From Eretmocerus hayati (lineage: Eukaryota; Arthropoda; Insecta; Hymenoptera; Aphelinidae), in NCBI GenBank assembly GCA_029851415.1, contig CM056744.1:57809797-57873796 (forward strand): DNA of 64,000 nt, read 5' to 3'. The notes under the pieces are model-generated. The model made no database searches. It was not told the DNA's origin and saw only the letters and a list, made by a program, of their open reading frames with translations. Below are positions 6,001 through 47,267 of this stretch, one piece after another; the first letter of the stretch is position 1, and each line of letters opens with the position of its first letter. The translations under genes were made by a program, and so were the position numbers.

Positions 6001-9000
6001 TTAGAACGGCTTAAGGATGAGTTCTGCTATCGGTCTGATTCCAGCCAGGCAGCATTGGATTGACTGCGTCCATCGATTTCAATGATGACCCAATCACTCA
6101 TTGCGTCATTGACTAATCGAGATCAATACCACAGGATCGAATTGCAATCGTGGGTGCATGGTTCTTCTATCCCTCTCAATACTCTAGATCAGTATTTAAC
6201 TCCTCTAGATCCCATGTATTCGGATCGCTTCCAATACTGTCGAGCAGGATTGGGACGGCCTGGAGATGAGTTTTGCTATTGGTCTGAATCCCGCCAGGCA
6301 GCATTGAGTCGACTGCGTCGATCAATTTTGATGATGACCCAATTACTCTTTGCGTCATCGATCAATCCAGATAAATACTATAGAATCCAGTTGAAATCGT
6401 GGTAGCATGGTTATTCTAACCCTCTCAATACTCACAATCAGTGTTGAAATCCTCTAGATTTCATACATCTCAATCGAATTCAATACTGCTCAGCAGGATT
6501 GGATCGGCCTGGAGATGAGTTTTGCTATCGGTCTGAATCCTGACAGAAAGCATTGAATCGACGAAGTGAAACATTTCCAATGATAACCCAATCACTTGTT
6601 GCGTCATTGACCAATCGAGCTGAATACTATAGGACGGAATTCGAATCGTAGGAGCATGATATCTATCCTCCTCAATGCTCGTCATCAGTATTGAACTCTT
6701 CTAGTTCTCATATATTTGATTCGGATTCAATACTGCTGAGCAGGATTGTTATGGACTGAGAATGAGTTCCGCTATCGGGCTGAATACTGCCGGGCAGCAT
6801 AGAATCGACCGCGTCAATCGATTCCAATGACGACCCAATCACTCATTGCGTCTTGACTAATCGAGATGAATACCACAGATTCGAATTGAGATCGTGGGTG
6901 CATGGTTCTTCTATCCCTCTCAATACTCTAAATCAGTATTGAACTCCTCTAGATTCCATGTATTTGAATCCGAATCCAATACTGTCGAGCAGGATTGGAA
7001 AGGCCTGGAGATGAGTTTTGCTATCGGTCTGCATCCTACCAGGTAGCATTGAGTCGACTACGTCAGTCGATTTCGATGATGACCCAATCACTCCATGCGT
7101 CATTGATCAATCGAGATGAATAGAACAGAATCCAGTTGAAATCGTGGGTGCACGGTCATTCTATCCCTCTGAATACTCACAATCAGTGTTCGTTCTCCTC
7201 TAGATTTCGTACATCTCAATCGAATTCAATACTGCTGAGCAGGATTAGAACGGCCTGAAAATGAGTTTTGCTTTCGGTCTGAATCCTGCCAGGCAGCATC
7301 GAGTCGACTGCGTCCATCGATTTCAATGATGACCCAATCACTCATTGCGTGATTGTCCAATCGAGCTTAATACTATAGGATGGAATACCCATCGTTGGAA
7401 AGTGGTCTCTATCCTCCCCAATACTTACAATCGGTATGAAACTCCTCTGAATTCCATGTATTTTAATTGGATTCAATACTGCTGAGCAGGATTGGTACGC
7501 TCTGAGGATGAGTTCCGCTATCGGTCTGAATCCTGCCGGGCAGCATTGAGTCGACTGCATCAATCGATTTCGATGATGACCCAATTACTCTTCGCGTCAT
7601 CGATCAATCCAGATAAATACAATAGAATCCAGTTGAAATCGTGGTAGCATGGTTATTCTATCCCTCTCAATACTCACAATCAGTGTTGAAATCCTCTAGA
7701 TTTCATACATCTCAATCGAATTCAATACTGCTCAGCAGGATTGGAACGGCCTGGAGATGAGTTTTGCTATCGGTCTGAATCCTGCCGGGCAGCATGGAAT
7801 CGACTGCGTCAATTGATTTCAATGACGACCCAATCACTCATTGCGTCCTGACTAATCGAGATGAATACCACAGATTCGAATTGAGATCGTGGGTGCATGG
7901 TTCTTCTATCGCTCTCAATACTCTAAATCAGTATTGAACCCCTCTAGATTCCATGTATTTGAATCCGAATCCAATACTGTCGAGCAGGATTGGAACGGCC
8001 TGGAGATGAGTTTTGCTATCGGTCTGCATCCTACCAGGTAGCATTGAGTCGACTTCGTCAGTCGATTTCGATGATGACCCAATAACTCCATGCGTCATCG
8101 ATCAATCCAGATAAATACAATAGAATCCAGTTGAAATCGTGGTAGCATGGTTATTCTATCCCTCTCAATACTCACAATCAGTGTTGAAATCCTCTAGATT
8201 TCATACATCTCAATCGAATTCAATACTGCTGAGCAGGATTAGAACGGCCTGAAGATGAGTTTTGCTTTCCGCCTGAATCCTGTCAGCCAGCATCGAGTCC
8301 ACTGCATCAATCGATTCCGATGATGACCAGATCACTCATTGCGTGATTGACCAATCGAGTCAAATACTGGAGAATCGAATTGGAATCGTGGGTGCATGGT
8401 TATTCTATCCCTCTCAATACTCACAACCAGTATTGAACTCCTCTAGATTCCATACATTTCAATCGAATCCAATACTGCTGAGCAGGATTGGAACGGCCTA
8501 AAGATGAGTTCTGCTATTGGTCTGATTCCAGCCAGGCTGCATTGAGTCGACTGCGTCGATCAATACTGATGATGACCCAATTACTCTTTGCGTCATCGAT
8601 CAATCCAGATAAATACTATAGAATCCAGTTGAAATCGTGGTAGCATGGTTATTCTAACCCTCTCAATACTCACAATCAGTGTTGAAATCCTCTAGATTTC
8701 ATACATCTCAATCGAATTCAATACTGCTCAGCAGGATTGGATCGGCCTGGAGATGAGTTTTGCTATCGGTCTGAATCCTGACAGGTAGCATTGAATCGAC
8801 GAAGTGAATCATTTCCAATGATAACCCAATCACTTGTTGCGTCATTGACCAATCGAGCTGAATACTATAGGACGGAATTCGAATCGTAGGAGCATGATAT
8901 CTATCCTCCTCAATGCTTGTCATCAGTATTGAACTCTTCTAGTTTTCATCTATTTGATTCGGATTCAATACTGCTGAGCAGGATTGTTATGGACTGAGAA

Positions 9001-12000
9001 TGAGTTTCGCTATCGGGCTGAATACTGCCGGGCAGCATAGAATCGACCGCGTCAATCGATTCCAATGACGACCCAATCACTCATTGCGTCTTGACTAATC
9101 GAGATGAATACCACAGATTCGAATTGAGATCGTGGGTGCATGGTTCTTCTATCCCTCTCAATACTCTATATCAGTATTGAACTCCTCTAGATTCCATGTA
9201 TTTGAATCCGAATCCAATACTGTCGAGCAGGATTGGAAAGGCCTGGAGATGAATTTTGCTATCGGTCTGCATCCTACCAGGTAGCATTGAGTCGACTACG
9301 TCAGTCGATTTCGATGATGACCCAATCACTCCATGCGTCATTGATCAATCGAGATGAATAGAACAGAATCCAGTTGAAATCGTGGGTGCACGGTTATTCT
9401 ATCCCTCTGAATACTCACAATCAGTGTTCGTTCTCCTTTAGATTTCGTACATCTCAATCGAATTCAATACTGCTGAGCAGGATTAGAACGGCCTGAAGAT
9501 GAGTTTTGCTTTCGGTCTGAATCCTGCCAGGCAGCATCGAGTCGACTGCGTCCATCGATTTCAATGATGACCCAATCACTCATTGCGTGATTGTCCAATC
9601 GAGCTTAATACTATAGGATGGAATACCGATCGTTGGAAAGTGGTCTCTATCCTCCCCAATACTTACAATCGGTATGAAACTCCTCTGAATTCCATGTATT
9701 TTAATTGGATTCAATACTGCTGAGCAGGATTGGTACGCTCTGAGGATGAGTTCCGCTATCGGTCTGAATCCTGCCGGGCAGCATTGAGTCGACTGCATCA
9801 ATCGATTTCGATGATGACCCAATTACTCTTCGCGTCATCGATCAATCCAGATAAATACAATAGAATCCAGTTGAAATCGTGGTAGCATGGTTATTCTATC
9901 CCTCTCAATACTCACAATCAGTGTTGAAATCCTCTAGATTTCATACATCTCAATCGAATTCAATACTGCTCAGCAGGATTGGAACGGCCTGGAGATGAGT
10001 TTTGCTATCGGTCTGAATCCTGCCGGGCAGCATGGAATCGACTGCGTCAATCGATTTCAATGACGACCCAATCACTCATTGCGTCCTGACTAATCGAGAT
10101 GAATACCACAGATTCGAATTGAGATCGTGGGTGCATGGTTCTTCTATCGCTCTCAATACTCTGAATCAGTATTGAACCCCTCTAGATTCCATGTATTTGA
10201 ATCCGAATCCAATACTGTCGAGCAGGATTGGAACGGCCTGGAGATGAGTTTTGCTATCGGTCTGCATCCTACCAGGTAGCATTGAGTCGACTTCGTCAGT
10301 CGATTTCGATGATGACCCAATAACTCCATGCGTCATTGATCAATCGGTATGAATACAACAGAATCCAGTTGAAATCGTGGGTGCACGGTTATTCTATCCC
10401 TCTGAATACTCACAATCAGTGTTCGTTCTCCTCTAGATTTCATGAATCTCAATCGAATTAAATACTGCTGAGCAGGATTAGAACGGCCTGAAGATGAGTT
10501 TTGCTTTCCGCCTGAATCCCGTCAGCCAGCATCGAGTCCACTGCATCAATCGATTCCGATGATGACCAGATCACTGATTGCGTGATTGACCAATCGAGTC
10601 AAATACTGGAGAATCGAATTGAAATCGTGGGTGCATGGTTATTCTATCCCTCTCAATACTCACAACCAGTATTGAACTCCTCTAGATTCCATACATTTCA
10701 ATCGAATCCAATACTGCTGAGCAGGATTGGAACGGCCTAAAGATGAGTTCTGCTATTGGTCTGATTCCAGCCAGGCTGCATTGAATCGACTGTGTCAATC
10801 GATTTCAATGATGAGCCAATCACTCATTGCGTCATTGACTAATCGAGATGGATACCACAGGATCGAATTGGAATCGTGGGTGCATGGTCCTTCTATCCCT
10901 CTCAATACTCTGAATCAGTATTGAACTCCTCTAGATTCCATGTATTCAGATCGAATTCCACACTGTCGAGCAGGATTGAAACGGCCTGGAGATGAGTTTT
11001 GCTATCGGTCTGAATCCTGCCAGGCAGCATTGAGTCGACTGCGTCAATCAATTTCAATGATGACCCAATCACTCTCTGCATCATCGATCAATCCAGATGA
11101 ATACTACAGAATCCAGTTGAAATCGTGGTAGCACGGTTATTCTATCCCTCTCAATACTCACAATCATTGTTGAACTCCTCTAGATTTCTCACATCTCAAT
11201 CGATATCGATACTGCTGAGCAGGATTGGAACGGCCTGGAGATGAGTTTTGCTATCGGTCTGAATCCTGCCAGGTTGCATTACATTGACGTTGTGAATCTA
11301 TTTCAATGATAACCCAATCACTTGTTGCATCATTGACCAATCAAGCTGGATACTATAGGACGAAATTCAAATCATGGGAGCATGATCTTTATCCTCCTCA
11401 ATGCTTGTAATCAGTATTGAACTCTTCTAGTTCTCATATATTTGATTCGGATTCAATACTGCTGAGCAGGATTGGTATGGAATGAGGCCGAGTTTCGCTA
11501 TCGGTCTGAATCCTGCCGGGCAGCATTGAATCGACCGCGTCAATCGATTCCAATGACGACCCAATCACTCATTGCGTCTTGACTAATCGAGATGGATACC
11601 ACAGATTCGAATTGAGATCGTGGGTGAATGGTTCTTCTATCCCTCTTAATACTCTAAATCAGTATTGAACTCCTCTAGATTCCATGTATTTGAATCCGAA
11701 TCCAATACTGTCGAGCAGGATTGGAAAGGCCTGGAGATGAGTTTTGCTATCGGTCTGCATCCTGCCAGGCAGCATTGAGTCGACTGCGTCGATCAATTTT
11801 GATGATGACCCAATTACTCTTTGCGTCATCGATCAATCCAGATAAATACAATAGAATCCAGTTGAAATCGTGGTAGCATGGTTATTCTAACCCTCTCAAT
11901 ACTCACAATCAGTGTTGAAATCCTCTAGATTTCATACATCTCAATCGAATTCAATACTGCTCAGCAGGATTGGATCGGCCTGGAGATGAGTTTTGCTATC

Positions 12001-14863
12001 GGTCTGAATCCTGACAGGTAGCATTGAATCGACGAAGTGAATCATTTCCAATGATAACCCAATCACTTGTTGCGTCATTGACCAATCGAGCTGAATACTA
12101 TAGGACGGAATTCGAATCGTAGGAGCATGATATCTATCCTCCTCAATGCTTGTCATCAGTATTGAACTCTTCTAGTTCTCATATATTTGATTCGGATTCA
12201 ATACTGCTGAGCAGGATTGTTATGGACTGAGAATGAGTTTCGCTATCGGGCTGAATACTGCCGGGCAGCATAGAATCGACCGCGTCAATCGATTCCAATG
12301 ACGACCCAATCACTCATTGCGTCTTGACTAATCGAGATGAATACCACAGATCCGAATTGAGATCGTGGGTGCATGGTTCTTCTATCCCTCTCAATACTCT
12401 ATATCAGTATTGATTTCCTCTAGATTCCATGTACTTGATTCGAATCCAATACTGCTGAGCAGGATTAGAACGGCTTAAGGATGAGTTCTGATATCGTCCT
12501 GATTCCAGCCAGGCAGCATTGGATTGACTGCGTCCATCGATTTCAATGATGACCCAATCACTCATTGCGTCATTGACTAATCGAGATCAATACCACAGGA
12601 TCGAATTGCAATCGTGGGTGCATGGTTCTTCTATCCCTCTCAATACTCTAGATCAGTATATAACTCCTCTAGATCCCATGTATTCGGATCGCTTCCAATA
12701 CTGTCGAGCAGGATTGGGACGGCCTGGAGATGAGTTTTGCTATTGGTCTGAATCCTGCCAGGCAGCATTGAGTCGACTGCGTCGATCAATTCTGATGATG
12801 ACCCAATTACTCTTTGCGTCATCGATCAATCCAGATAAATACTATAGAATCCAGTTGAAATCGTGGTAGCATGGTTATTCTAACCCTCTCAATACTCACA
12901 ATCAGTGTTGAAATCCTCTAGATTTCATACATCTCAATCGAATTCAATACTGCTCAGCAGGATTGGATCGGCCTGGAGATGAGTTTTGCTATCGGTCTGA
13001 ATCCTGACAGGTAGCATTGAATCGACGAAGTGAATCATTTCCAATGATAACCCAATCACTTGTTGCGTCATCGACCAATCGAGCTGAATACTATAGGACG
13101 GAATTCGAATCGTAGGAGCATGATATCTATCCTCCTCAATGTTTGTCATCAGTATTGAACTCTTCTAGTTCTCATATATTTGATTCGGATTCAATACTGC
13201 TGAGCAGGATTGTTATGGACTGAGAATGAGTTTCGATATCGGGCTGAATACTGCCGGGCAGCATAGAATCGACCGCGTCAATCGATTCCAATGACGACCC
13301 AATCACTCATTGCGTCTTGACTAATCGAGATGAATACCACAGATTCGAATTGAGATCGTGGGTGCATGGTTCTTCTATCCCTCTCAATACTCTAAATCAG
13401 TATTGAACTCCTCTAGATTCCATGTATTCGAATCCGAATCCAATACTGTCGAGCAGGATTGGAAAGGCCTGGAGATGAGTTTTGCTATCGGTCTGCATCC
13501 TACCAGGTAGCATTGAGTCGACTACGTCAGTCGATTTTGATGATGACCCAATCACTCCATGCGTCATTGATCAATCGAGATGAATACAACAGAATCCAGT
13601 TGAAATCGTGGGTGCACGGTTATTCTATCCCTCTGAATACTCACTATCAGTGTTCGTTCTCCTCTAGATTTCGTACATCTCAATCGAATTCAATACTGCT
13701 GAGCAGGATTAGAACGGCCTGAAGATGAGTTTTGCTTTCGGTCTGAATCCTGCCAGGCAGCATCGAGTCGACTGCGTCCATCGATTTCAATGATGACCCA
13801 ATCACTCATTGCGTGATTGTCCAATCGAGCTTAATACTATAGGATGGAATACCGATCGTTGGAAAGTGGTCTCTATCCTCCCCAATACTTACAATCGGTA
13901 TGAAACTCCTCTGAATTCCATGTATTTCAATTGGATTCAATACTGCTGAGCAGGATTGGTACGCTCTGAGGATGAGTTCCGCTATCGGTCTGAATCCTGC
14001 CGGGCAGCATTGAGTCGACTGCATCAATCGATTTCGATGATGACCCAATTACTCTTCGCGTCATCGATCAATCCAGATAAATACAATAGAATCCAGTTGA
14101 AATCGTGGTAGCATGGTTATTCTATCCCTCTCAATACTCTAAATCAGTATTGAACCCCTCTAGATTCCATGTATTTGAATCCGAATTCAATACTGTCGAG
14201 CAGGATTGGAACGGCCTGGAGATGAGTTTTGCTATCGGTCTGCATCCTACCAGGTAGCATTGAGTCGACTTCGTCAGTCGATTTCGATGATGACCCAATC
14301 ACTCCATGCGTCATTGATCATTCGAGATGAATACAACAGAATCCAGTTGAAATCGTGGGTGCACGGTTATTCTATCCCTCTGAATACTCACAATCAGTGT
14401 TCGTTCTCCTCTAGATTTCGTACATCTCAATCGAATTCAATACTGCTGAGCAGGATTAGAACGGCCTGAAGATGAGTTTTGCTTTCGGTCTGAATCCTGC
14501 CAGGCAGCATCGAGTCGACTGCGTCCATCGATTTCAATGATGACCCAATCACTCATTGCGTGATTGTCCAATCGAGCTTAATACTATAGGATGGAATACC
14601 GATCGTTGGAAAGTGGTCTCTATCCTCCCCAATACTCACAATCGGTATGAAACTCCTCTGAATTCCATGTATTTTAATTGGATTCAATACTGCTGAGCAG
14701 GATTGGTACGCTCTGAGGATGAGTTCCGCTATCGGTCTGAATCCTGCCGGGCAGCATTGAGTCGACTGCATCAATCGATTTCGATGATGACCCAATTACT
14801 CTTCACGTCATCGATCAATCCAGATAAATACAATAGAATCCAGTTGAAATCGTGGTAGCATGG
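1..14863. repeat. 248-bp satellite array, left block
   Basis: About 60 tandem monomers of 247-249 bp. A landmark found once per monomer is an imperfect dyad CTGCT(G/C)AGCAG, or the variant CTGTCGAGCAG, followed by GATTGG. Monomer types recur in a higher-order pattern: the sequence from 1 to about 4250 realigns column for column with 8701 to about 12950 (period 8,700 bp, 35 monomers). Smaller shifts of 745, 993 and about 3,233 bp (3, 4 and 13 monomers) also occur. A local 747-bp (3-monomer) duplication lies at about 13.4-14.8 kb. Stop-poor stretches on both strands are a by-product of the repeat, not genes. The array runs off the left edge of the window. A heterochromatic or centromeric location is inference. 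Confidence 0.97.
14860..14863. repeat. Target-site duplication of element A, left copy (ATGG)
   Basis: ATGG precedes the 5' LTR and recurs at 24334-24337 after the 3' LTR. Removing the element and one copy restores the ordinary satellite sequence (GTAGCATGGTTATTC), so the insertion point is exact. A 4-bp duplication is typical of Ty3/gypsy integrases. Confidence 0.95.
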
Positions 14864-15757
14864 TGTGAGTGCCATAACCCCAAAATTTTAGTTTTTATTT
14901 TGAGAATTCAAGATAGAACCATCTATTAGTTTTAATATGGGATTCAAATCTCGGCGCGCCTCTGAGTCGGTATAGTAGCGATCTTTTCGCCTTCTGATTG
15001 ACGCGCAATGTAAATACTCACATATGGGCATGATCATGTATATGCACTAACACATAGAAATTTGGAAAATTCCACGAATTTCTATAAGGAATTTTCCATA
15101 TGAAACTGTATGAAATAAGAAACTTTTCCATACCATCATAGAGCTCATTTTCTGAGTTTTCCAGTACATATTAGTTTTTTCTGAAAACAATTGATTTTCT
15201 ATTCGTATTTCATTTTACAATCTAATTTTGTAGATAAAAAACGTACCATAACATTTTTTCCCAACTTTTTCGGTTGATTGCACTCGTTAGATTCCTAAGA
15301 GTTAAAATAGACGTGAGATTTCTTTTGATGTTTGAAAATAATTGCAAAATTAGGCATCTTGTAAATATTGTAAATAATATCATTGTAAAATGGAGTTTTG
15401 CAACTTCTGACTTTATTATGTGAAAATTCATATGACTACATGAGAGTAATAAGCGAAAGTACTAAACATTTTGATTAATTTTCTTTGATTTTCGAGGATA
15501 GATGAATAGCCACGTTTTTCTAGAACATTCCAGAGAATTATCTTTTTGTTGATTACAATAAAATAAAAACGATTCTATTCAATTCATACATGGAATTCAA
15601 TTGATTTTGGGATGCAGAATCCATTGGTGTAAATGAATTATGTGAATATAATTGATCAAAACCTGATTTTTTACGGGATATGGGTTCTTCGAACGTTCCA
15701 TCATCTATTAGAATATCTTCATACAATATAGATATACTGTAAAGCCAGAGGACTGAG

Positions 15758-15765
15758 TATAAATA
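15758..15765 (+). promoter_or_regulatory. TATA box of element A LTR
   Basis: TATAAATA in the LTR, upstream of the polyadenylation signal. The element B LTR has the same box at 44623-44630 in the same relative place. The start of transcription is expected about 25-30 bp downstream; no initiator is certain. Confidence 0.7.
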
Positions 15766-15880
15766 GAGGCTCATTAGCCCATTGCGGGGACCTTGTGCTT
15801 AGTCAAAATCCAGAGAGCTCTATCGAGACGAAGTCCTCTGGCTATTCAATATATATATATATGTATGTATTGAATGCTGG

Positions 15881-15886
15881 AATAAA
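15881..15886 (+). promoter_or_regulatory. Polyadenylation signal of element A LTR
   Basis: AATAAA in the context GGAATAAATGC. Element B has the matching signal at 44735-44740 (GAATAAATGC). It defines the end of R. Everything after it in the LTR, including the hairpin array, should appear only at the 5' end of the genomic RNA. Confidence 0.65.
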
Positions 15887-15960
15887 TGCTTTTAGTTGAA
15901 TATACATATACGTGTTTTACTGAGTATGGCTCGATGAAGCTCCAAGACGATCATCTTGAT

Positions 15961-16383
15961 ATTCGAAGGCTGAAGTCCCTTCGGAATTAGGATGAAAGTC
16001 TGATTTGACTGTGCGACCTGGGTAACCTGTGCTCGTGGAGGCTGAAGTCCCTTCTCGTACACAGGCCCTTAGGTGAGGGCGAAATTGTTGATTCTTATCT
16101 TGAGATGGGACTGTGCTGAAGTCCACACCTCATCTCTGGGTAAAACTCAACCCACACAAAAAATTCATTCGTGTGCCTGGGATGGATGGGCTGAAGTCCC
16201 CATCTATACCTAAGCCACGTGTGGATAACTATATATATATATACATACAAAATTTAGATTCCCTATCGAATTTTATTTCGACATGCTAAAGTGCTGAAGT
16301 CCACTTGGTATGCAGGGATAAAATTTGATCCTATATTCGATCCGTACTTTCGCGTTGCGAGAGCTGAAGTCCTCTCGTATACG
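15961..16383 (+). other. Array of six RNA hairpins sharing the loop CTGAAGTC
   Basis: Six stem-loops in U5 with identical 8-nt loops CTGAAGTC at 15970-15977, 16042-16049, 16116-16123, 16191-16198, 16294-16301 and 16364-16371. The stems flanking each loop differ but are complementary: CGAAGG/CCTTCG, GGAGG/CCTTC (within a 16-pair imperfect stem at 16026-16065), TGTG/CACA, GATGGG/CCCATC, AAGTG/CACTT and CGAGAG/CTCTCG. Every loop is closed by a G-C pair. Several arms extend outward; the fifth pairs over about 16265-16329. The 3' LTR repeats the array at +7,790. Function unknown; a repeated RNA recognition element in the 5' leader (packaging, translation control or nuclear export) is inference. 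Confidence 0.85.
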
Positions 16384-16545
16384 TGAAATATGGCCGAATA
16401 AAGCCACCCCCATCGATCCGCACATTCTGATCCTAATATCGATCCAAGAATATGACGTACACCTCTATCGAGGTACCCATCCCTTAAGATAAATTTTGAC
16501 CACTGGCTCTCTCCCGAGATCCAGAGCCTATTGGTCACTCACATC

Positions 16546-16563
16546 TGGCGCCCAGACAGGGAC
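16546..16563 (+). other. Primer-binding site, tRNA-Lys type
   Basis: Two bases after the LTR, TGGCGCCCAGACAGGGAC is close to the tRNA-Lys primer site of many retroelements (TGGCGCCC start, CAGGGAC end). The identical 18-mer follows the element B LTR at 45241-45258. Confidence 0.85.
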
Positions 16564-16681
16564 TCGATACGTGTAAAAAACGTTTTATTCTATGATATAA
16601 AAATTTTGTATAGTATTTCTGAATGGGCGATGCACGCTTTCAAGTGCCGTCGCATTAAAAACATTAGGGTAACCTCATCAG

Positions 16682-16853
16682 GAGCACGTTTGGTAGGCTT
16701 CGAGGTGTTCACGTTGCTGGCTATTATGCGAGCATGATAAACAAACTCATAGCCACATAAAAAAGCGCGTTTAGCCGCTGTGGTATGTACGATCGCTCGT
16801 ACAATCGAGCATTGCCCCCACTTCGCCTCTTATAGAGCGCGTTTAGATCGCTC
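16682..16853 (+). other. Leader hairpins with CGTTTAG-type loops
   Basis: Between primer site and gag there are small stem-loops matched in element B. GAGC/GCTT closes a CGTTTGG loop (about 16682-16700). CCAC/GTGG plus AGCG/CGCT closes CGTTTAGC (16753-16783). GCTCG/CGAGC closes TACAAT (16795-16810). GAGCG/CGCTC closes CGTTTAGAT (16835-16853). In B these lie at 45384-45402, 45470-45498, 45509-45524 and 45549-45567, with changes mostly in loops or spacers. Role unknown; a structured genomic-RNA leader is likely. Confidence 0.65.
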
Positions 16854-16863
16854 GCAGGCAACA

Positions 16864-16935
16864 ATCTCGTTGGTCTAGTGGCCAGTATATCTGACTCCCA
16901 CGCGGTAGCACGGGGTTCGATTCCCGGACACTGAA
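16864..16935 (+). ncRNA. tRNA-like module in the element A leader (A and B boxes intact)
   Basis: Box A TGGTCTAGTGG (16871-16881) and box B GGTTCGATTCC (16914-16924) are 43 nt apart, the same spacing as in a tRNA such as tRNA-Glu. D-arm, anticodon-loop (CTCCCAC, triplet CCC) and T-arm positions can be followed. The T stem has one mismatch, the anticodon stem is poor and the acceptor stem does not pair, so this is not a working tRNA gene. The same module sits in the element B leader (45578-45649). The internal 62 bases are almost unchanged between copies while flanking sequence has drifted. It could be a Pol III promoter-like sequence or a tRNA mimic; function is not shown. Confidence 0.7.
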
Positions 16936-17097
16936 AATTTTTATTCACATATTATCATTTTTTCGAATATATCTAATCGTAATAATGCATTTCTAATTGA
17001 ATGCAATTCGATTTTCTACATAAAAGTTAAAAAATTCATCCAAACTCAATTCGTTCAGTGAAGGCCCCAGCCAGTAGACAACCCAACCTACTCGAGA

Positions 17098-18486
17098 GTG
17101 TATTTGACGACCAATACACGGCGATCAATCGCGGACGAAGACAGAGCTGATGTATCAGCTCAAGCATTACTAGAACGCATTGAGAATCCAGTAGAAGGGG
17201 TCGATGATACACAAGTAAACACTCGAGCATGGACAAAGGCTGTTACTGAAGAATTGAAAATATTGGATGATGAACAATCTCAGCTGTTCACCAGATTAAA
17301 TAACCTCGAAAAATCACATGATGTACTAGCCGAAATAAAGAATCTGGTCCTTGAAAACGAGAGTACCACTAAAACTTTAGAAAGTCTCATTAAGGACAAA
17401 GATGAATTCCATCAGAAATTCGATTCCATTTTGAGTAGATTGAAGGAAATTTCTGAAGAAAATGCCTCTTTGCGGAAAGAGAATAAAGTTTTTAAAGACA
17501 CCCTTGTAAAACTGAACGAGAAGGTCCAAATCCTAGAAAGTGAAAAGGACGAACTCAACAGATTCGTGGTGGAATTAAGAAATGAGACCATCGCGGATTT
17601 GGAAAAAGACGTTACTTTTGGTCAGCAGGCCATGAAAGACATTGGGGAGAGACAGTTAGCAATCTCCAATCAAGTCAAAGAGTTAAAGAAACAATCTATG
17701 GGTTTCGCAGAACCCATAACTAGAAAATTGAAATTATCTTCTCCCATTTTTAAAGGAGAATTAGGAGAAAGACCTGTACGTTTCTTGCGAGATTTTCGTA
17801 AGTACGTAGAAACCATGGCTTTAGATGAGCAAGAGCTCTCTTTATTAATTTCTAAATCTCTTCAGGGGACAGCGATTGGCTGGTTCCATTTACACGAAGA
17901 AGAGATCGTCTCTCTTGACGAATTTGAAATCAGGTTCAAAGAACAATTCTGGAACGAAAACGTGAAACGTTCCATGAAGCAAAAACTGGAATTTGGCAAA
18001 TATTATTCCAATGGGAAAAAATCCCGCGTGGAATATGCCATTGAACTATTCAACATCGCTCTCGAGTTAGATGAGACGCGAGAAGATACCGACATTGTAA
18101 ATCAACTATGTCAACATTTTGAAAGAGAAGTAAGGGCAGCCATTCGTGGCAGTGCCGACAAGTCAAAAAGTGCTTTTTTCAATACTCTCGCTGATTTCGA
18201 CAATGATGATGCAAGAGCTAGGGTAAAACGAGCCCAGCAACAATCAAATCAATCAGACGAGAAGAAGAAGCCCCAAGAGTGGCAATCTCGAAGTTTGAGC
18301 TCGAGTACCACTGAAAAAGATCCTAAAAAGCCTGTCCAAAAACCCAAGCCCAAGCCGAGATCTCAAAAGCCTCCTGAGGCCAAAGAGGCTGAAAAATTGG
18401 CTAAAGCTGCGGCAAAAGAATACGAAAAGGACGTCGATGTCCTCAGCCTAGTTGAAGATATTGAAAGTTCGGAAAACTCCCAATAG
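17098..18486 (+). CDS. gag: Element A Gag-like protein (start codon lost)
   Basis: Open frame of 462 codons ending TAG at 18484. The N-terminal third is an acidic, Glu/Lys/Leu-rich coiled coil (about residues 35-190). A retrotransposon capsid domain follows (about 225-375: FLRDFRKYVE, GTAIGWFHLHEEE, LDEFEIRFKEQF). The tail (about 380-440) is Lys/Pro/Gln-rich and basic, with no CCHC zinc knuckle. It should form the particle that packages element RNA. The start is a problem: the frame opens with GTG, and relative to element B a 9-bp deletion has removed the ATG. The first in-frame ATG here is at 17632 (residue 179). Gag may be made from a non-AUG codon, or this copy may depend on Gag from elsewhere. 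The end overlaps the pol frame. Confidence 0.85.
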   Translation: MYLTTNTRRSIADEDRADVSAQALLERIENPVEGVDDTQVNTRAWTKAVTEELKILDDEQSQLFTRLNNLEKSHDVLAEIKNLVLENESTTKTLESLIKDKDEFHQKFDSILSRLKEISEENASLRKENKVFKDTLVKLNEKVQILESEKDELNRFVVELRNETIADLEKDVTFGQQAMKDIGERQLAISNQVKELKKQSMGFAEPITRKLKLSSPIFKGELGERPVRFLRDFRKYVETMALDEQELSLLISKSLQGTAIGWFHLHEEEIVSLDEFEIRFKEQFWNENVKRSMKQKLEFGKYYSNGKKSRVEYAIELFNIALELDETREDTDIVNQLCQHFEREVRAAIRGSADKSKSAFFNTLADFDNDDARARVKRAQQQSNQSDEKKKPQEWQSRSLSSSTTEKDPKKPVQKPKPKPRSQKPPEAKEAEKLAKAAAKEYEKDVDVLSLVEDIESSENSQ

Positions 18487-18518
18487 TTGCATGCTTACCC
18501 GCGCAGCAACATGCAACT
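18471..18518 (+). promoter_or_regulatory. Candidate -1 ribosomal frameshift signal at the gag-pol junction
   Basis: Heptamer G GAA AAC (18471-18477, in gag phase) resembles the GGA-type slippery sites known from some retroviruses. It is followed by a 7-nt spacer and a perfect 9-bp hairpin AGTTGCATG/CATGCAACT (18485-18493 with 18510-18518, loop 16 nt). The gag stop TAG lies at 18484-18486, at the hairpin foot. The pol frame is -1 to gag and is open from 18465, so a slip at 18477 would give Gag-Pol. Element B keeps the heptamer, spacer length and stem while the loop differs. The alternative is separate initiation of pol at ATG 18531. Confidence 0.65.
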
Positions 18519-18530
18519 GAAGAAATCAAC

Positions 18531-21500
18531 ATGAGGTCAATTTATAACGATCCCCGAGGGGATCTGCTCTACGATATCGAGCCACGGGGGGAAAATTGTG
18601 TAAAACGCAAGTGCCCCGAAATTGTTATGAAAATCGAAGGTATTGATATTAATACCCTTGTGGATTCTGGAAGTGAAGTCACTTGCATCTCTGAGGATTT
18701 CTATCTGCAACACCAGGACGTTTTTAAAATCTGTCCAACTCTCCCATTCTCCGGAAAAATAATCCGCGGAGCCACTGGACAAAAGTCCACTCGTATAAAA
18801 TACCAATGCCTGATGACTACTCAGATTGGGTCTCTGGTTTTCTCTTTAATATTCATTGTAGTTCCTAAACTAACGAAGGACTGCATATTGGGTTATGATG
18901 CACAGAAAGGCCTGAAAATGAACATGAATACTGAGACTGAAAAACTAACATTTAAAATCGACAAAAAAGTCGAGACAGTGTCTTATGTCGATTCCTTCAC
19001 ACTAGATGAAGAATCGTCCTGCTTAAGATTAGCAGTAGACACAGAAACCGAGTCACCTTCACAGGGGGTGAACTCATTTTTTGTGGGTAGCTGCTCCTAT
19101 GGAGCTGCCCATTACTCAGAGTCTTCGGAAGAACTTTCAGATGAAGAGATTGAGGAAAAGCTTAGGGAATGCACAACGTTAAATCGGCAACAAAAAGCTA
19201 GACTACGCAGGCTCATAAAAAAGCATCGTGTAGTTTTCCGAAAATCTCCTGGTCTTCTGAAGATATACGAGCATAAAATGACGCTCAGAGATAATAAGCC
19301 TTTCTACACAAAACCTTATCCCATTCCAATGAATTATAGAGAAAAAGTCAGAGAGGAGATCAAACGTTTGTTGAAATATAAAATAATAAGGAGGTCAAAT
19401 AGTACCTACATAAATCCGATAGTAATCGTAATAAAAAGTGATGGATCCATAAGGTTATGCCTAGATGCCCGTAATTTGAACGCTCGAATGGTTCAAGATT
19501 ATGAGGCCCCTCCAGCAGTCGAAGAAATTTTCCAAGACTGTCATGGTATCAAGTATATATCAACCTTCGATCTTCTTTCTAGTTTTTATCAAATTCCCCT
19601 AGAGGAATCTAGCAGAAAATATACAGCCTTCATCCTAGATGGCGCTGTATACGAATTCTGTGTCGTTCCGTTTGGTACTTGTACGAGTACCGCAGCCTTA
19701 GTACGTGGTCTCGACCTTGCTCTCGGGGATCTTTATTCCTTTTTGAAAGCCTTCGTGGATGATTTAGTCTGCGTGTCAAAAGATTTCGAAGAGCATCTTC
19801 GTCATCTGGAGATCCTCTTCGAGAGACTACAAAAACACAACCTCACTTTGGGATTCAAGAAATCCCATTTCGTGCAGGAAGAAGTCAGATTCCTTGGACA
19901 TACTTTGTCTTCGGAAGGACTCAAACCAACCCCTGATAAGATTGCGGCCATAAAAAATTTCAAAAGGCCAGAAAATATTAAACAACTGCAAAGTTTCCTT
20001 GGCTTTGTGAATTTCTACACAAAATTCGCTAAAAACTTTGCACATGAAACAAAACCCCTGCTGGAGCTCTTAAAAAAGGGTGCCACATTTACGTGGACAG
20101 AAGAATGTGAAGCTGCATTCAATCGAATCAAAGATCTGTTTGTTGAAAACATTATCTTGAAGTTTGCTGACCCATCCAAACCTTTCATTTTGAGTACGGA
20201 TGCAAGCCAGCATTCGCTGGGAGCGGTGCTATCCCAATTAGATGAGAATGGCGATGAAAACGTCATTACTTTCATATCAAGGGCCCTAAAAGGCCCAGAA
20301 ATGGGGTATTTTACCAGCGAGAAAGAAATGCTTTGTGTGGTCTGGGCCCTTAGTAAGCTTGACAGCTACTTAAGAGGAGCCAAGAGAATCGTTCTGAGAA
20401 CGGATCATGAAGCTCTCACATTTTTGAAAACCTGCAAATTCTCAAACGCGCGCTTGCGACGTTGGAATTTGGCGATACAAGATTATAATCTATACCCGGA
20501 ATACATTCCTGGACCAAAAAACGTAGTGGCTGATCTGCTTAGTCGGATTGATCCACCAAATTCAAGGAGTGAGGATGAAATTCTTATCGCCTCTACTCTT
20601 GCGGGATCCCCTACTGCGGGTCTCACTAAAAAATTGAAAGATTTGAGCCAGCTTCAAAGAGAAGATGAAAAGCTCGAAAAAATTTTCAAGGGCATATCCC
20701 AGAACGATGAGGAAACTTGTCGAAAGTATCGCATTAAAAATGACTTATTGCAAATAATTTCCAAGGATGGAAAATTCAAAATAATGCTCCCGGACCAGGT
20801 TACTCCAGTGCTCGTGCATGAGTTGCACCAGATTTATGGGCACGTTGGAGCTCAAAAGATTTGCTGGCTGTTGGAAGAAGATTTTTATATCAAATCCATG
20901 CGGCGAACTGTCACAAAAATATTACGCGTATGTGACGTTTGTCAGAAAGCTAAACACGCCACGCGCGCATATGACTCACATTTCCAGCCAATCTTAACCA
21001 CTGAACCCAATGAGCTTTTATGCATTGATTTTTACGGCCCTTTGCCAACGTCAACGGGGGGCGTAAAATACGTACTCAGTACGATCGATGCATTCAGTAA
21101 ATTCGTAATTCTCTACCCCATTAAAAAGGCAAACACGAAAACGGCAATCAGCAAAATCTTTGGGGATTACGTCCCGAAATATGGCAAGCCGAAAAAAATA
21201 TTGTGCGATCATGGATCACAGTTTCAATCGGAATTGTGGAATAAAAAATTGCAGGATGAAAATATCCAACTGATTTTCAGTTCTATAAGACATCCGCAAT
21301 CAAATCTGGTTGAAAGAATTCACAGAGAAATCGGTCGTTTCATGCGTACCTATCTGAACAATACACATAAAAACTGGTTCAAATACATAGACATTATTCA
21401 GTCTATACTGAACGAGGTTCATCATTCAACTACTGGTTTTACACCTCTGGAATTACATCTAAATAGAAAACCAGAGTGTGTCTGGAAAAAGTACATCATG

Positions 21501-21860
21501 ACAGAAGATGATAATTTCATATCTCACGAAGAAAAAATTGAGCTTGCTTTAGACCGTGCGCATGGCCGTCTAAAAAAGCGTGCCGATAAAATGAATGCAG
21601 GCCGTGAGCATTTTCAATATAAAGTGGATGATTTGGTTTTATTGAAATCCAATGCAGTATCTGAGTTACTAAATGAGAAGATTGCAAAATTCTTCCACAT
21701 ATGGAATGGCCCATATAGAATTTCCAAAATAGTCGGTCCCGACACATATTTACTTGTCGACCCCGCAACAATGCGAGAGCGCGGCAAATTCCACTTAAAC
21801 TTACTCAAGCCCTACGTTCAAAATGTAAACAATACTCCAGCTGAGCTTGTCAAGGCCTAG
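18531..21860 (+). CDS. pol: Element A Pol polyprotein: protease, RT, RNase H, integrase
   Basis: 1,109 codons from ATG 18531; the frame is open back to 18465. Domains in order: aspartic protease with DSG at residues 45-47 and the ILGYD motif near 118; reverse transcriptase about 235-480 with catalytic FVDD at 408-411; RNase H with the first Asp at 557 (TDAS) and a TDHEAL motif after it; integrase with an HHCC zinc domain (about 760-805) and the catalytic triad D833, D893, E928 (a DX35E spacing). A basic C-terminal region ends near 1095. No stop or frameshift was found, so this copy could be active. Gag lies 5' in the 0 frame and the accessory ORF follows 35 bp after the stop. Confidence 0.95.
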   Translation: MRSIYNDPRGDLLYDIEPRGENCVKRKCPEIVMKIEGIDINTLVDSGSEVTCISEDFYLQHQDVFKICPTLPFSGKIIRGATGQKSTRIKYQCLMTTQIGSLVFSLIFIVVPKLTKDCILGYDAQKGLKMNMNTETEKLTFKIDKKVETVSYVDSFTLDEESSCLRLAVDTETESPSQGVNSFFVGSCSYGAAHYSESSEELSDEEIEEKLRECTTLNRQQKARLRRLIKKHRVVFRKSPGLLKIYEHKMTLRDNKPFYTKPYPIPMNYREKVREEIKRLLKYKIIRRSNSTYINPIVIVIKSDGSIRLCLDARNLNARMVQDYEAPPAVEEIFQDCHGIKYISTFDLLSSFYQIPLEESSRKYTAFILDGAVYEFCVVPFGTCTSTAALVRGLDLALGDLYSFLKAFVDDLVCVSKDFEEHLRHLEILFERLQKHNLTLGFKKSHFVQEEVRFLGHTLSSEGLKPTPDKIAAIKNFKRPENIKQLQSFLGFVNFYTKFAKNFAHETKPLLELLKKGATFTWTEECEAAFNRIKDLFVENIILKFADPSKPFILSTDASQHSLGAVLSQLDENGDENVITFISRALKGPEMGYFTSEKEMLCVVWALSKLDSYLRGAKRIVLRTDHEALTFLKTCKFSNARLRRWNLAIQDYNLYPEYIPGPKNVVADLLSRIDPPNSRSEDEILIASTLAGSPTAGLTKKLKDLSQLQREDEKLEKIFKGISQNDEETCRKYRIKNDLLQIISKDGKFKIMLPDQVTPVLVHELHQIYGHVGAQKICWLLEEDFYIKSMRRTVTKILRVCDVCQKAKHATRAYDSHFQPILTTEPNELLCIDFYGPLPTSTGGVKYVLSTIDAFSKFVILYPIKKANTKTAISKIFGDYVPKYGKPKKILCDHGSQFQSELWNKKLQDENIQLIFSSIRHPQSNLVERIHREIGRFMRTYLNNTHKNWFKYIDIIQSILNEVHHSTTGFTPLELHLNRKPECVWKKYIMTEDDNFISHEEKIELALDRAHGRLKKRADKMNAGREHFQYKVDDLVLLKSNAVSELLNEKIAKFFHIWNGPYRISKIVGPDTYLLVDPATMRERGKFHLNLLKPYVQNVNNTPAELVKA

Positions 21861-21894
21861 TTCACTCCAAAAATATATCAGTATCACTTCGAAA

Positions 21895-22521
21895 ATGAAG
21901 CGAAACGCCTCAACAATGTGCGAGCCTTTTTTACGCGTGGACAAATCTGTCCAGACTGGCCATGCTGTGCTGGAATTCGGCAAGGGCCTAAGTGCGCGAA
22001 AAAAGTTATTCGGGTGCAGTGCCCGATATCAATATTTTCAAAGGCCCATGGTCCTTATCAAGTGCCAGAAAACACAAACGGAGGCAGTGCGCATAAGCCA
22101 CAAGGCAACCCAAACCGAGGAGAAGCTGCGTTTGTTGACGGCACCGGCCCCTCGGTACATTCCGACGCCAAAATTTCTGCTGGCGCCTGGCAGTATCCCG
22201 ACTTTACCGCAAGATACACCGCTTGACGCACCTGCAGTCGTTGATGAGGTATTTACCTAAACTCATAATTTTGCTCTACCTCGCATGAATCAAGATTGAG
22301 ATTCACAATTCTAGGAAGAATATATTCCTGAACCCGTGAACAGCCAGCGACGTGAATCCTTAGACGCAGAGCTTTACAAGATGTGTGAGCTGTTAGAAGG
22401 GGCTCACGCAGACCAGCTGTTCAACTCTGTAAAAAGAGCACAGTTTTTGTACAATGAAAAAAATATTGGTTTTGATGAAAAGTGTGAACAAGTCGAGAAA
22501 GAATGTGCGGATATAATCTAA
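21895..22521 (+). CDS. Accessory ORF after pol with LC8-type motifs, possibly spliced
   Basis: The ORF starts at ATG 21895, downstream of the pol stop, and unspliced ends at 22260 (121 aa). A second segment in the same frame runs from 22315 to 22521. Between them GAG|GTATTT (22249) and TTCTAG (ending 22314) bound a 66-nt phase-0 intron candidate; splicing would give about 186 residues. The protein is basic and not hydrophobic, so it is not envelope-like. Three short motifs fit the dynein light chain LC8 anchor (x-Q-T): KSVQTG (17-22), KTQTE (59-63) and KATQTE (70-75). LC8 clients often carry several such sites. Binding to LC8, and hence dynein-linked transport or dimerisation, is inference. 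I do not recognise a known family. Confidence 0.6.
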
Positions 22522-22653
22522 ATATACCAATAATCCATTAGAATTTCGAGATTATTCATTTACCCCGAATTTCTGTTTGTTTACATGTCACTCTTTCTTT
22601 GATTAAAACCTTAAAATTTCCTTTTGAAAACTTTAAGCTTTTAATGGGGGGCA
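22522..22653 (+). other. Element A 3' untranslated region and purine tract
   Basis: AT-rich sequence ending in AATGGGGGGCA immediately before the 3' LTR. The G-run (22645-22651) fits a polypurine tract for plus-strand priming. Confidence 0.7.
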
Positions 22654-24333
22654 TGTGAGTGCCATAACCCCAAAATTTTAGTTTTTATTTTGAGAATTCA
22701 AGATAGAACCATCTATTAGTTTTAATATGGGATTCAAATCTCGGCGCGCCTCTGAGTCGGTATAGTAGCGATCTTTTCGCCTTCTGATTGACGCGCAATG
22801 TAAATACTCACATATGGGCATGATCATGTATATGCACTAACACATAGAAACTTGGAAAATTCCACGAATTTCTATAAGGAATTTTCCATATGAAACTGTA
22901 TGAAATAAGAAACTTTTCCATACCATCATAGAGCTCATTTTCTGAGTTTTCCAGTACATATGAGTTTTTTCTGAAAACAATTGATTTTCTATTCGTATTT
23001 CATTTTACAATCTAATTTTGTAGATAAAAAACGTACCATAACATTTTTTCCCAACTTTTTCGGTTGATTGCACTCGTTAGATTCCTAAGAGTTAAAATAG
23101 ACGTGAGATTTCTTTTGATGTTTGAAAATAATTGCAAAATTAGGCATCTTGTAAATATTGTAAATAATATCATTGTAAAATGGAGTTTTGCAACTTCTGA
23201 CTTTATTATGTGAAAATTCATATGACTACATGAGAGTAATAAGCGAAAGTACTAAACATTTTGATTAATTTTCTTTGATTTTCGAGGATAGATGAATAGC
23301 CACGTTTTTCTAGAACATTCCAGAGAATTATCTTTTTGTTGATTACAATAAAATAAAAACGATTCTATTCAATTCATACATGGAATTCAATTGATTTTGG
23401 GATGCAGAATCCATTGGTGTAAATGAATTATGTGAATATAATTGATCAAAACCTGATTTTTTACGGGATATGGGTTCTTCGAACGTTCCATCATCTATTA
23501 GAATATCTTCATACAATATAGATATACTGTAAAGCCAGAGGACTGAGTATAAATAGAGGCTCATTAGCCCATTGCGGGGACCTTGTGCTTAGTCAAAATC
23601 CAGAGAGCTCTATCGAGACGAAGTCCTCTGGCTATTCAATATATATATATATGTATGTATTGAATGCTGGAATAAATGCTTTTAGTTGAATATACATATA
23701 CGTGTTTTACTGAGTATGGCTCGATGAAGCTCCAAGACGATCATCTTGATATTCGAAGGCTGAAGTCCCTTCGGAATTAGGATGAAAGTCTGATTTGACT
23801 GTGCGACCTGGGTAACCTGTGCTCGTGGAGGCTGAAGTCCCTTCTCGTACACAGGCCCTTAGGTGAGGGCGAAATTGTTGATTCTTATCTTGAGATGGGA
23901 CTGTGCTGAAGTCCACACCTCATCTCTGGGTAAAACTCAACCCACACAAAAAATTCATTCGTGTGCCTGGGATGGATGGGCTGAAGTCCCCATCTATACC
24001 TAAGCCACGTGTGGATAACTATATATATATATACATACAAAATTTAGATTCCCTATCGAATTTTATTTCGACATGCTAAAGTGCTGAAGTCCACTTGGTA
24101 TGCAGGGATAAAATTTGATCCTATATTCGATCCGTACTTTCGCGTTGCGAGAGCTGAAGTCCTCTCGTATACGTGAAATATGGCCGAATAAAGCCACCCC
24201 CATCGATCCGCACATTCTGATCCTAATATCGATCCAAGAATATGACGTACACCGTTATCGAGGTACCCATCCCTTAAGATAAATTTTGACCACTGGCTCT
24301 CTCCCGAGATCCAGAGCCTATTGGTCACTCACA
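22654..24333 (+). repeat. Element A 3' LTR (1,680 bp)
   Basis: Same length and termini as the 5' LTR. The four differences that I found are listed under the element. The hairpin array recurs at 23751-24173. The right flank begins with the ATGG duplication and resumes the satellite. Confidence 0.96.
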
Positions 24334-24337
24334 ATGG
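24334..24337. repeat. Target-site duplication of element A, right copy (ATGG)
   Basis: Matches 14860-14863. The sequence continues TTATTCTATCCC, the normal continuation of the interrupted monomer. Confidence 0.95.
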
Positions 24338-27300
24338 TTATTCTATCCCTCTCAATACTCACAATCAGTGTTGAAATCCTCTAGATTTCATACATCTCAA
24401 TCGAATTCAATACTGCTCAGCAGGATTGGAACGGCCTGGAGATGAGTTTTGCTATCGGTCTGAATCCTGCCGGGCAGCATGGAATCGACTGCGTCAATCA
24501 ATTTCAATGACGACCCAATCACTCATTGCGTCCTGACTAATCGAGATGAATACCACAGATTCGAATTGAGATCGTGGGTGCATGGTTCTTCTATCGCTCT
24601 CAATACTCTAAATCAGTATTGAACCCCTCTAGATTCCATGTATTTGAATCCGAATCCAATACTGTCGAGCAGGATTGGAACGGCCTGGAGATGAGTTTTG
24701 CTATCGGTCTGCATCCTACCAGGTAGCATTGAGTCGACTTCGTCAGTCGATTTCGATGATGACCCAATAACTCCATGCGTCATTGATCAATCGAGATGAA
24801 TACAACAGAATCCAGTTGAAATCGTGGGTGCACGGTTATTCTATCCCTCTGAATACTCACAATCAGTGTTCGTTCTCCTCTAGATTTCATGAATCTCAAT
24901 CGAATTCAATACTGCTGAGCAGGATTAGAACGGCCTGAAGATGAGTTTTGCTTTCCGCCTGAATCCTGTCAGCCAGCATCGAGTCCACTGCATCAATCGA
25001 TTCCGATGATGACCAGATCACTGATTGCGTGATTGACCAATCGAGTCAAATACTGGAGAATCGAATTGAAATCGTGGGTGCATGGTTATTCTATCCCTCT
25101 CAATACTCACAACCAGTATTGAACTCCTCTAGATTCCATACATTTCAATCGAATCCAATACTGCTGAGCAGGATTGGAACGGCCTAAAGATGAGTTCTGC
25201 TATTGGTCTGATTCCAGCCAGGCTGCATTGAATCGACTGCGTCAATCGATTTCAATGATGAGCCAATCACTCATTGCGTCATTGACTAATCGAGATGGAT
25301 ACCACAGGATCGAATTGGAACCGTGGGTGCATGGTCCTTCTATCCCTCTCAATACTCTGAATCAGTATTGAACTCCTCTAGATTCCATGTATTCAGATCG
25401 AATTCCACACTGTCGAGCAGGATTGGAACGGCCTGGAGATGAGTTTTGCTATCGGTCTGAATCCTGCCAGGCAGCATTGAGTCGACTGCGTCAATCAATT
25501 TCAATGATGACCCAATCACTCTCTGCATCATCGATCAATCCAGATGAATACTACAGAATCCAGTTGAAATCGTGGTAGCACGGTTATTCTATCCCTCTCA
25601 ATACTCACAATCATTGTTGAACTCCTCTAGATTTCTCACATCTCAATCGATATCAATACTGCTGAGCAGGATTGGAACGGCCTGGAGATGAGTTTTGCTA
25701 TCGGTCTGGATCCTGCCAGGTTGCATTACATTGACGTTGTGAATCTATTTCAATGATAACCCAATCACTTGTTGCATCATTGACCAATCAAGCTGAATAC
25801 TATAGGACGGAATTCAAATCATGGGAGCATGATCTTTATCCTCCTCAATGCTTGTAATCAGTATTGAACTCTTCTAGTTCTCATATATTTGATTCGGATT
25901 CAATACTGCTGAGCAGGATTGGTATGGAATGAGGCCGAGTTTCGCTATCGGTCTGAATCCTGCCGAGCAGCATTGAATCGACCGCGTCTATCGATTCCAA
26001 TGACGACCCAATCACTCATTGCGTCTTGACTAATCGAGATGGATACCACAGATTCGAATTGAGATCGTGGGTGCATGGTTCTTCTATCCCTCTCAATACT
26101 CTATATCAGTATTGATTTCCTCTAGATTCCATGTACTTGATTCGAATCCAATACTGCTGAGCAGGATTAGAACGGCTTAAGGATGAGTTCTGCTATCGGT
26201 CTGATTCCAGCCAGGCAGCATTGGATTGACTGCGTCCATCGATTTCAATGATGACCCAATCACTCATTGCGTCATTGACTAATCGAGATCAATACCACAG
26301 GATCGAATTGCAATCGTGGGTGCATGGTTCTTCTATCCCTCTCAATACTCTAGATCAGTATTTAACTCCTCTAGATCCCATGTATTCGGATCGCTTCCAA
26401 TACTGTCGAGCAGGATTGGGACGGCCTGGAGATGAGTTTTGCTATTGGTCTGAATCCTGCCAGGCAGCATTGAGTCGACTGCGTCGATCAATTTTGATGA
26501 TGACCCAATTACTCTTTGCGTCATCGATCAATCCAGATAAATACTATAGAATCCAGTTGAAATCGTGGTAGCATGGTTATTCTAACCCTCTCAATACTCA
26601 CAATCAGTGTTGAAATCCTCTAGATTTCATACATCTCAATCGAATTCAATACTGCTCAGCAGGATTGGATCGGCCTGGAGATGAGTTTTGCTATCGGTCT
26701 GAATCCTGACAGGTAGCATCGAATCGACGAAGTGAATCATTTCCAATGATAACCCAATCACTTGTTGCGTCATTGACCAATCGAGCTGAATACTATAGGA
26801 CGGAATTCGAATCGTAGGAGCATGATATCTATCCTCCTCAATGCTTGTCATCAGTATTGAACTCTTCTAGTTCTCATATATTTGATTCGGATTCAATACT
26901 GCTGAGCAGGATTGTTATGGACTGAGAATGAGTTTCGCTATCGGGCTGAATACTGCCGGGCAGCATAGAATCGACCGCGTCAATCGATTCCAATGACGAC
27001 CCAATCACTCATTGCGTCTTGACTAATCGAGATGAATACCACAGATTCGAATTGAGATCGTGGGTGCATGGTTCTTCTATCCCTCTCAATACTCTAAATC
27101 AGTATTGAACTCCTCTAGATTCCATGTATTTGAATCCGAATCCAATACTGTCGAGCAGGATTGGAAAGGCCTGGAGATGAGTTTTGCTATCGGTCTGCAT
27201 CCTACCAGGTAGCATTGAGTCGACTACGTCAGTCGATTTCGATGATGACCCAATCACTCCATGCGTCATTGATCAATCGAGATGAATACAACAGAATCCA

Positions 27301-45238: not shown

Positions 45239-45240
45239 TC

Positions 45241-47255: not shown

Positions 47256-47267
47256 GAGAAAATCAAC

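Follow-up and report, generated by a model that had tools for sequence, protein, structure and literature searches.

In a 64,000-nucleotide (nt) stretch of the genome of the parasitoid wasp Eretmocerus hayati (GenBank contig CM056744.1, positions 57,809,797 to 57,873,796; here called the window), a Ty3/gypsy long terminal repeat (LTR) retrotransposon that we designated element A carries six long hairpins in the U5 (unique 5′) region of its LTRs. All six have the loop CUGAAGUC and are closed by G-C, and their stems are mostly unlike. Related families of elements in the same genome, designated B to E, have arrays of the same design. What was computed comprises the array, its predicted fold, covariation in its stems, constraint on its loops, and loop words specific to each family, which in families A to D sit on nearly one backbone. 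We infer that the array acts as RNA, that several of its loops are bound at once, and that Gag binds them in the course of packaging; to the reading as a multivalent loop display for RNA packaging by a Gag without zinc knuckles we give a probability of about 40%.

A set of six hairpins with a single loop and G-C closure had been proposed from the sequence alone, and folding bears this out. Each of the six copies of CTGAAGTC stands between G and C and between complementary sequences, and all six loops are apical in the fold of the 639-nt U5 (minimum free energy, -218.4 kcal/mol; z score, -10.6), which none of 20 shuffles equaled in stability. Every base of the loops has an ensemble unpaired probability of 0.84 to 1.00. 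Arms folded singly had z scores below -2 in five of six cases, arm 2 being the exception (Table 1). The loops lie on one strand within about 400 nt, and the array lies between the AATAAA at 15881 and the primer-binding site (PBS) at 16546. Matches to CTGAAGTC on both strands of the window number 14, versus 2.65 expected, a count that none of 100 shuffles reached (the largest was 6); the 3′ LTR has the loop at the same six places (23760 to 24154). The proposed extent of the array, 15961 to 16383, covers the loops, but by the fold the arms span about 15945 to 16403. The proposal that the stems differ is likewise correct for most of them; however, a 16-nt core, AGGCTGAAGTCCCTTC, is common to arms 1 and 2, and arms 3 and 5 show 76% similarity across 37 nt, so the stems of element A are not all unrelated.

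In the window, a detector requiring three or more occurrences of a loop, with four or more closing pairs each time, returned only the array of element A, the antisense of that array, and the copy in the 3′ LTR; five base-shuffled windows (one strand each) yielded nothing. In further loci of the genome the detector gave three other single matches (CGGTTC, GGGGTCGT, and CCCTCAGGGGC). The detector missed a second array in the window, that of element B, in which the first arm is a variant and the loops are read in two registers; this array was recognized by eye and by pattern. It lies at 44811 to 45106, was absent from the original prediction, and has four arms with CCTAAGTAC (one of them CCTACGTAC). 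The U5 of element B folds with a z score of -4.0, a stability reached by 1 of 100 shuffles. A second AATAAA stands at the end of the array in both elements (16397 in A and 45104 in B); the array of family E ends in the same way. The sequence CTGAAGTC reads the same backwards, but this mirror symmetry was set aside as a candidate feature because the loops of the other families lack it. A possible resemblance to the T loop of tRNA-Lys was another candidate feature of the loops. Rfam gave no match at the gathering score in the whole window; within 15780 to 16560 there was one weak match only, to mir-297 (23.2 bits versus 90; E = 0.17), outside the arms. Scanning viral contigs with two-loop patterns yielded 10 stretches and 1 stretch, none with matching stems by eye, and these were judged to be chance.

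Table 1. Coordinates of the hairpin arms and of other features of elements A and B within the window
Feature	Position	Strand	Remark
Element A, 5′ LTR	14864-16543	+	1680 bp; 4 mismatches versus 3′ LTR, no gaps
Element A, TATA box of LTR promoter	15758-15765	+	Transcription start inferred
Element A, AATAAA 5′ of array	15881-15886	+	
Element A, arm 1	15945-16001	+	Loop CTGAAGTC 15970-15977; fold
Element A, arm 2	16026-16065	+	Loop 16042-16049; fold; z only -1.39
Element A, arm 3	16087-16151	+	Loop 16116-16123; fold
Element A, arm 4	16163-16226	+	Loop 16191-16198; fold
Element A, arm 5	16265-16329	+	Loop 16294-16301; fold
Element A, arm 6	16331-16403	+	Loop 16364-16371; end overlaps second AATAAA (16397); fold
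Short U5-terminal hairpin GGCTCTCTCCCGAGATCCAGAGCC	16505-16528	+	Near-invariant in five families compared
Element A, PBS TGGCGCCCAGACAGGGAC	16546-16563	+	
Element A, Gag open reading frame	17098-18486	+	462 amino acids as listed; lysine-rich tail
Element A, Pol open reading frame	18531-21860	+	1109 amino acids; reverse transcriptase, RNase H, integrase (Ty3/gypsy order)
Element A, 3′ LTR	22654-24333	+	Holds same six loops
Element B, arm 1	44811-44873	+	Variant loop CCTACGTAC at 44838; not wholly unpaired in fold
Element B, arm 2	44886-44953	+	Loop (C)CCTAAGTAC at 44917
Element B, arm 3	44967-45031	+	Loop (C)CCTAAGTAC at 44997
Element B, arm 4	45035-45106	+	Loop CCTAAGTAC at 45068

A search with the LTR of element A, in which 40 of 440 candidates were scored, yielded 41 match rows, the two LTRs of the window among them, and a search with the leader at 16750 to 17100 (40 of 146 candidates scored, 30 cut out) led to elements with quite different U5s. 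Families A to D each have four to six hairpins with their own repeated loop: CUGAAGUC, CCUAAGUAC, CCCUGAUC, and CCUCAGUC. The array of family C has CCCTGATC four times, whereas that of family D has CCTAAGTC once, CCTCAGTC four times, and one further arm with CCTAAGTAC. Family E has five arms with CCTAAGTAC or CCTGAGTAC, one of them decayed, and a set of four loci designated C2 (L090, L117, L124, and L125) has CCCTACTC, CCCTTGAT, and two copies of CCCTAATC, or variants thereof. The main loop words of families A to E contain C-U-N-A and have C at both ends; CUNA is missing from two of the four loops in each of the C2 loci L090 and L117. When single arms from seven arrays of five families (two arrays each of B and C) were folded, 29 of 32 had z scores below -2 and 30 of 32 had apical loops, in a set seeded by loop patterns and therefore made up of arms that retain their loops. 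Screening of the loci found no array in L053, L055, L064, L065, L069, L074, and L078 and only a distant 8-mer pair in L075, but folding by hand revealed decayed or variant arrays in L053, L055, L074, and L078; it revealed none in L069. Neither a PBS nor the motif was found in L083, L086, and L087, no array in L092 and L093, and no CUNA loop in L110 and L121.

The U5s of families A to D, compared over the 600 nt 5′ of the PBS, are 46.2 to 52.6% identical, with a shuffled floor of 41.6%, whereas the 1.9 kb 3′ of the PBS (leader and gag) has 83.1 to 90.9% nucleotide identity (four copies of A and two each of B, C, and D). Gag, its tail included, has about 91% amino acid identity between the window copy of A and the best B, C, and D copies. 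Thus, U5 changes far more rapidly than the remainder of the element, through evolution or exchange, and the hairpin-array design is kept. Family E stands outside this shared backbone, with an internal identity of 56 to 78% to families A to D.

Covariation had been suggested as the check on the hairpins, and the arms of different families supply it. Three groups of orthologous arms, matched by their flanks, have 65 shared paired column pairs, of which 34 are unchanged, 23 have changes in both partners, and 8 have a change in one partner only. Because these shared pairs came from each sequence's own fold, the structure of one family was also projected on the others. Canonical pairs resulted in 452 of 730 cells (61.9%), versus 40.6 to 45.5% for eight slid versions, and in 127 of the 218 cells in which both letters had changed. 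Double Watson-Crick changes were found at 12 pairs in family B (11 copies) and at 12 in family D (6 copies), and in 37 copies of A both-sided changes kept the pair in 68 cells (at 5 pairs) and broke it in 11.

The loops are constrained, in keeping with the invariant loop of the original prediction. In the 37 copies of A, which are not independent because the two LTRs of an element count as two copies (as they also do in the 28-copy draw, in the copies of B, C, and D, and in the strand counts below), substitutions affected 1.1% of loop positions (19/1767), 5.3% of paired arm positions (569/10671), and 13.9% of the unpaired rest (679/4886). These statistics leave out L012 and L013, which are the window itself; L049 to L052, which overlap the window or other loci, were likewise kept out. 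Six random LTR octamers were as little changed as the loops in 57 of 20,000 draws from 28 copies of A. The loops are also the least substituted part in family C (4 of 448 cells changed). Within one element each of A, B, C, and D, loops are 95 to 100% identical, whereas the 8-nt stems are 39 to 56% and the next 16 nt 27 to 38% identical; the arm of D with CCTAAGTAC was left out of the comparison of loops and stems.

The frequency of such arrays in the genome was evaluated by way of the short hairpin at the end of U5, whose 20-base core, CTCTCTCCCNAGATCCAGAG, has 329 genome matches (reversed-pattern control, 0). A two-hairpin pattern of the A type has 295 (control, 0), and one array may give several. 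From 100 places listed in genome sequence C1 and part of genome sequence C2, 40 sites upstream of the core were drawn, 20 by core variant and 20 spread over C1. At least two apical CUNA loops were present on the sense strand in 31 of these 40 loci, compared with 2 of 40 shuffled once.

The array has the design of multi-hairpin packaging signals in its sequence: several stem-loops, a constant loop, and varied, covarying stems. U5 would then be a multivalent RNA display of four to six long hairpins, mostly 67 to 81 nt apart, that presents the same 8- to 10-nt loop at the 5′ end of the genomic RNA, and a protein that is weak on one loop would be strong on the array. Most likely, the array would mark the genomic RNA so that Gag packages it into virus-like particles. 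Gag is suggested as the reader because the array is near the PBS and because the design is common to RNA-virus packaging signals. A Gag with a lysine-rich tail and no zinc knuckle would need help with specificity. An excerpt of a study of Ty1 describes another LTR-element Gag without a zinc finger, which binds RNA via a C-terminal region with basic clusters (PMC4974528).

Several results count against this interpretation. In the projection between families, pairs with one changed letter were canonical in only 77 of 264 cells (187 broken), and one-sided changes in the 37 copies of A broke the pair in 225 cells and kept it in 184. Compensation events in A are few because 62 of the 68 compensated cells stem from three pairs. 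Family C gave no double compensation among 14 copies and a single case among 18, and its paired arms vary like the unpaired rest (3.1% versus 2.3%); the C copies are too uniform to inform on compensation. Comparing the strands by distinct G-U versus A-C differences, with copies that are not independent, does not single out RNA: the counts are 43:31 in A (background, 221:81), 14:9 in C (24:5), 8:4 in D (19:9), and 21:21 in B (46:49). Antisense folds also gave CUNA loops in 8 of the 40 sampled loci. The original prediction confined the array to the 5′ end of genomic RNA on the strength of an upstream AATAAA. That AATAAA is present, but if the one at the end of the array (16397 in A, 45104 in B) sets the poly(A) site instead, the array may lie in the repeat (R) region. 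Finally, the loops change between families without an obvious change in Gag, a mismatch that the shared loop core, mostly C-U-N-A, softens.

Because Gag hardly changes while the loops do, the main rival is a host RNA-binding protein, docked by the loops in place of Gag and acting in nuclear export, stability, localization, or translation. The presence of CUNA in the main loop word of every family from A to E fits such a protein, and we liken this core to the YUNAY-type sites of SF1/branch-point and STAR-type KH proteins, which would make such a protein a candidate. However, a shared host protein should favor one loop word, whereas the words differ by family, and the CUNA-less loops of L090 and L117 are a further difficulty. 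On balance a host reader is possible but somewhat unlikely.

It is rather doubtful that the array is an identity tag, in which each family would have its own loop word on a fast-changing U5, with the loops of an element changing together, and in which the reader, which might be Gag assembly or else a host factor engaged in an arms race, would tell the RNA of one family from that of its sisters despite nearly the same Gag. Control of translation is a distinctly unlikely role for the array, whether as part of an internal ribosome entry site or shunt or as a brake on Gag synthesis. The leader is about 1.3 kb long and, judging from the U5 fold, very stable; simple scanning is unlikely because 22 ATGs precede Gag between about 15800 and 17098, a count that depends on a presumed transcription start, and 22 are also present in element B. 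However, translation control by itself needs no identical loops on different stems.

The structure might instead be needed in single-stranded cDNA, for example for strand transfer or integration. Minus-strand strong-stop DNA copies the whole of U5, the array is between R and the PBS, and the G-U and A-C counts do not clearly favor the RNA strand, but strand transfer needs no set of identical loops and the loops sit in the middle of U5, which makes this improbable. Retroviral RNAs dimerize by loop kissing, and the hairpins are near the PBS, but we regard kissing-loop dimerization of the genomic RNA, or pairing of the loops to a complement within the element, as disfavored and very improbable. 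The loops are no more self-complementary than permuted ones, since permutations were at least as stable in 1345 of 1500 cases for A, 615 of 1500 for B, 250 of 836 for C, 576 of 834 for D, and 852 of 1500 for E. Complements of 7 or 8 loop bases are absent from element A (15790 to 23700), in which a single 6-base complement occurs, and element B (44660 to 48190) has none of 6 or more. Growth of the arrays by hairpin duplication, with loops identical by recent descent and under no selection, deserves almost no credence, even though family D arms 881 and 948 (L077) are near copies and arms 3 and 5 of A are alike, because stems are far less alike than loops within an element, substitutions in A and C are rarest in the loops, and pairing is kept through double changes.

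Retroviral dimerization and packaging hairpins also lie in the 5′ leader near the PBS, with Gag as the ligand. However, those hairpins are few, have different loops, and kiss through palindromes, whereas the wasp loops are not palindromes and lack the self-complementarity of a dimer-initiation loop. Among RNA viruses, coronavirus stem-loop 5 (excerpt of PMC10927501) is also a structured 5′-proximal leader element with two or three hairpins that have one loop motif and a proposed packaging or binding role. It differs in forming a four-way junction with two or three UUYYGU hexaloops common to most alpha- and betacoronaviruses, whereas the wasp elements have four to six separate long hairpins in an LTR, with family-specific loop words that are octamers to decamers of the form C...C. 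The alphavirus nsP1 packaging signal likewise has four to six stem-loops with a shared short element, and both the stems and the element are needed to package the genome over the subgenome (excerpt of PMC8233893). In contrast, the wasp arrays keep the whole 8- to 10-nt loop constant and are in a noncoding LTR, and the GGG at the loop base of the alphavirus signal stands directly 5′ of the loop in one of six A arms, although it does so in four of the five CCTCAGTC or CCTAAGTC arms of D. In the packaging signals of RNA viruses such as MS2 (excerpt of PMC6281560), numerous stem-loops with differing stems have one recognition motif in common, but they are dispersed over the genome with degenerate motifs, whereas the wasp array is clustered in about 460 nt with invariant loops. 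Sireviruses have motif clusters in noncoding parts of LTR retrotransposons (excerpt of PMC2829016); there the repeat unit is itself a constant palindrome, located by env or 5′ of the TATA box in the 3′ LTR, whereas in the wasp elements the stems vary and the loop is constant.

The statement that no named retroelement feature has this design agrees with the open-license literature searched. No such feature was apparent by title or start of abstract among the papers listed on hairpin or stem-loop sets in retrotransposons, the excerpt of a survey of LTR structure (PMC3601003) does not mention such a hairpin set, and an E. hayati genome paper (PMC13116730) contains neither "hairpin" nor "stem-loop." Shared-loop hairpin sets are already known in RNA viruses, and the retroelement version with family loop words appears to be new. 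How LTR retrotransposons with knuckle-less Gags choose their RNA is poorly known. These families provide a natural swap, in which nearly one coding backbone is combined with four U5 modules and each module repeats a loop of its own. Were the loops a packaging or sorting code, they would offer a ready multivalent RNA tag with several specificities, and the large, fast-evolving U5 would be a testable functional module rather than filler.

Element A belongs to the Ty3/gypsy LTR retrotransposons, as seen from its LTR pair, its target-site duplication, the PBS beside the 5′ LTR, and the order of reverse transcriptase, RNase H, and integrase. It is 9.47 kb long and was inserted, with a 4-bp duplication (ATGG at 14860 to 14863 and 24334 to 24337, by eye), within a long tandem satellite with steps of about 250 bp (1 to 14864 and 24334 to 36394), the two sides of which can be aligned with each other. 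Its LTRs are 99.76% identical, so the element is young. The PBS is presumably tRNA-Lys-like. The Gag label comes from position and from the likeness in order to Ty3/gypsy elements; the frame has no CCHC knuckle and no Pfam match. Among the 120 of 437 Pol matches listed, the closest named relatives by identity are in the Hymenoptera (Copidosoma, 57%; Trichogramma, 52%; Orussus, 48%), and the top-scoring named relative is a frog locus (38%). A search of viral contigs with Pol gave no confirmed relative.

An imperfect inverted repeat surrounds the TATA box and presumed start of element A (15726 to 15860; arms 15726 to 15768 and 15818 to 15860, 79%), and by eye a seemingly matching pair with changed sequence is present in element B at about 44590 to 44710. 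The leader between the PBS and Gag has a tRNA-like stretch (16870 to 16935 and 45585 to 45650) in a portion that the families have in common; by eye we take it to resemble the A and B boxes of RNA polymerase III promoters (GGTTCGATTCC), but ARAGORN and Rfam do not call it. Where the match to A ends inside element B, there are 299-bp inverted repeats, 97% identical (48191 to 48489 and 49514 to 49812), which look like a nested DNA transposon. Elsewhere in the window are a 1.8-kb palindrome that is 93% self-complementary (41787 to 43569) and another reverse transcriptase open reading frame, with RVT_1 and RNase H domains, on the minus strand (36978 to 38312). Two further open reading frames (56692 to 57735 and 57957 to 59027) have TNP-like transposase domains, N-terminal and C-terminal RNase H parts, which we take to be of the P-element type.
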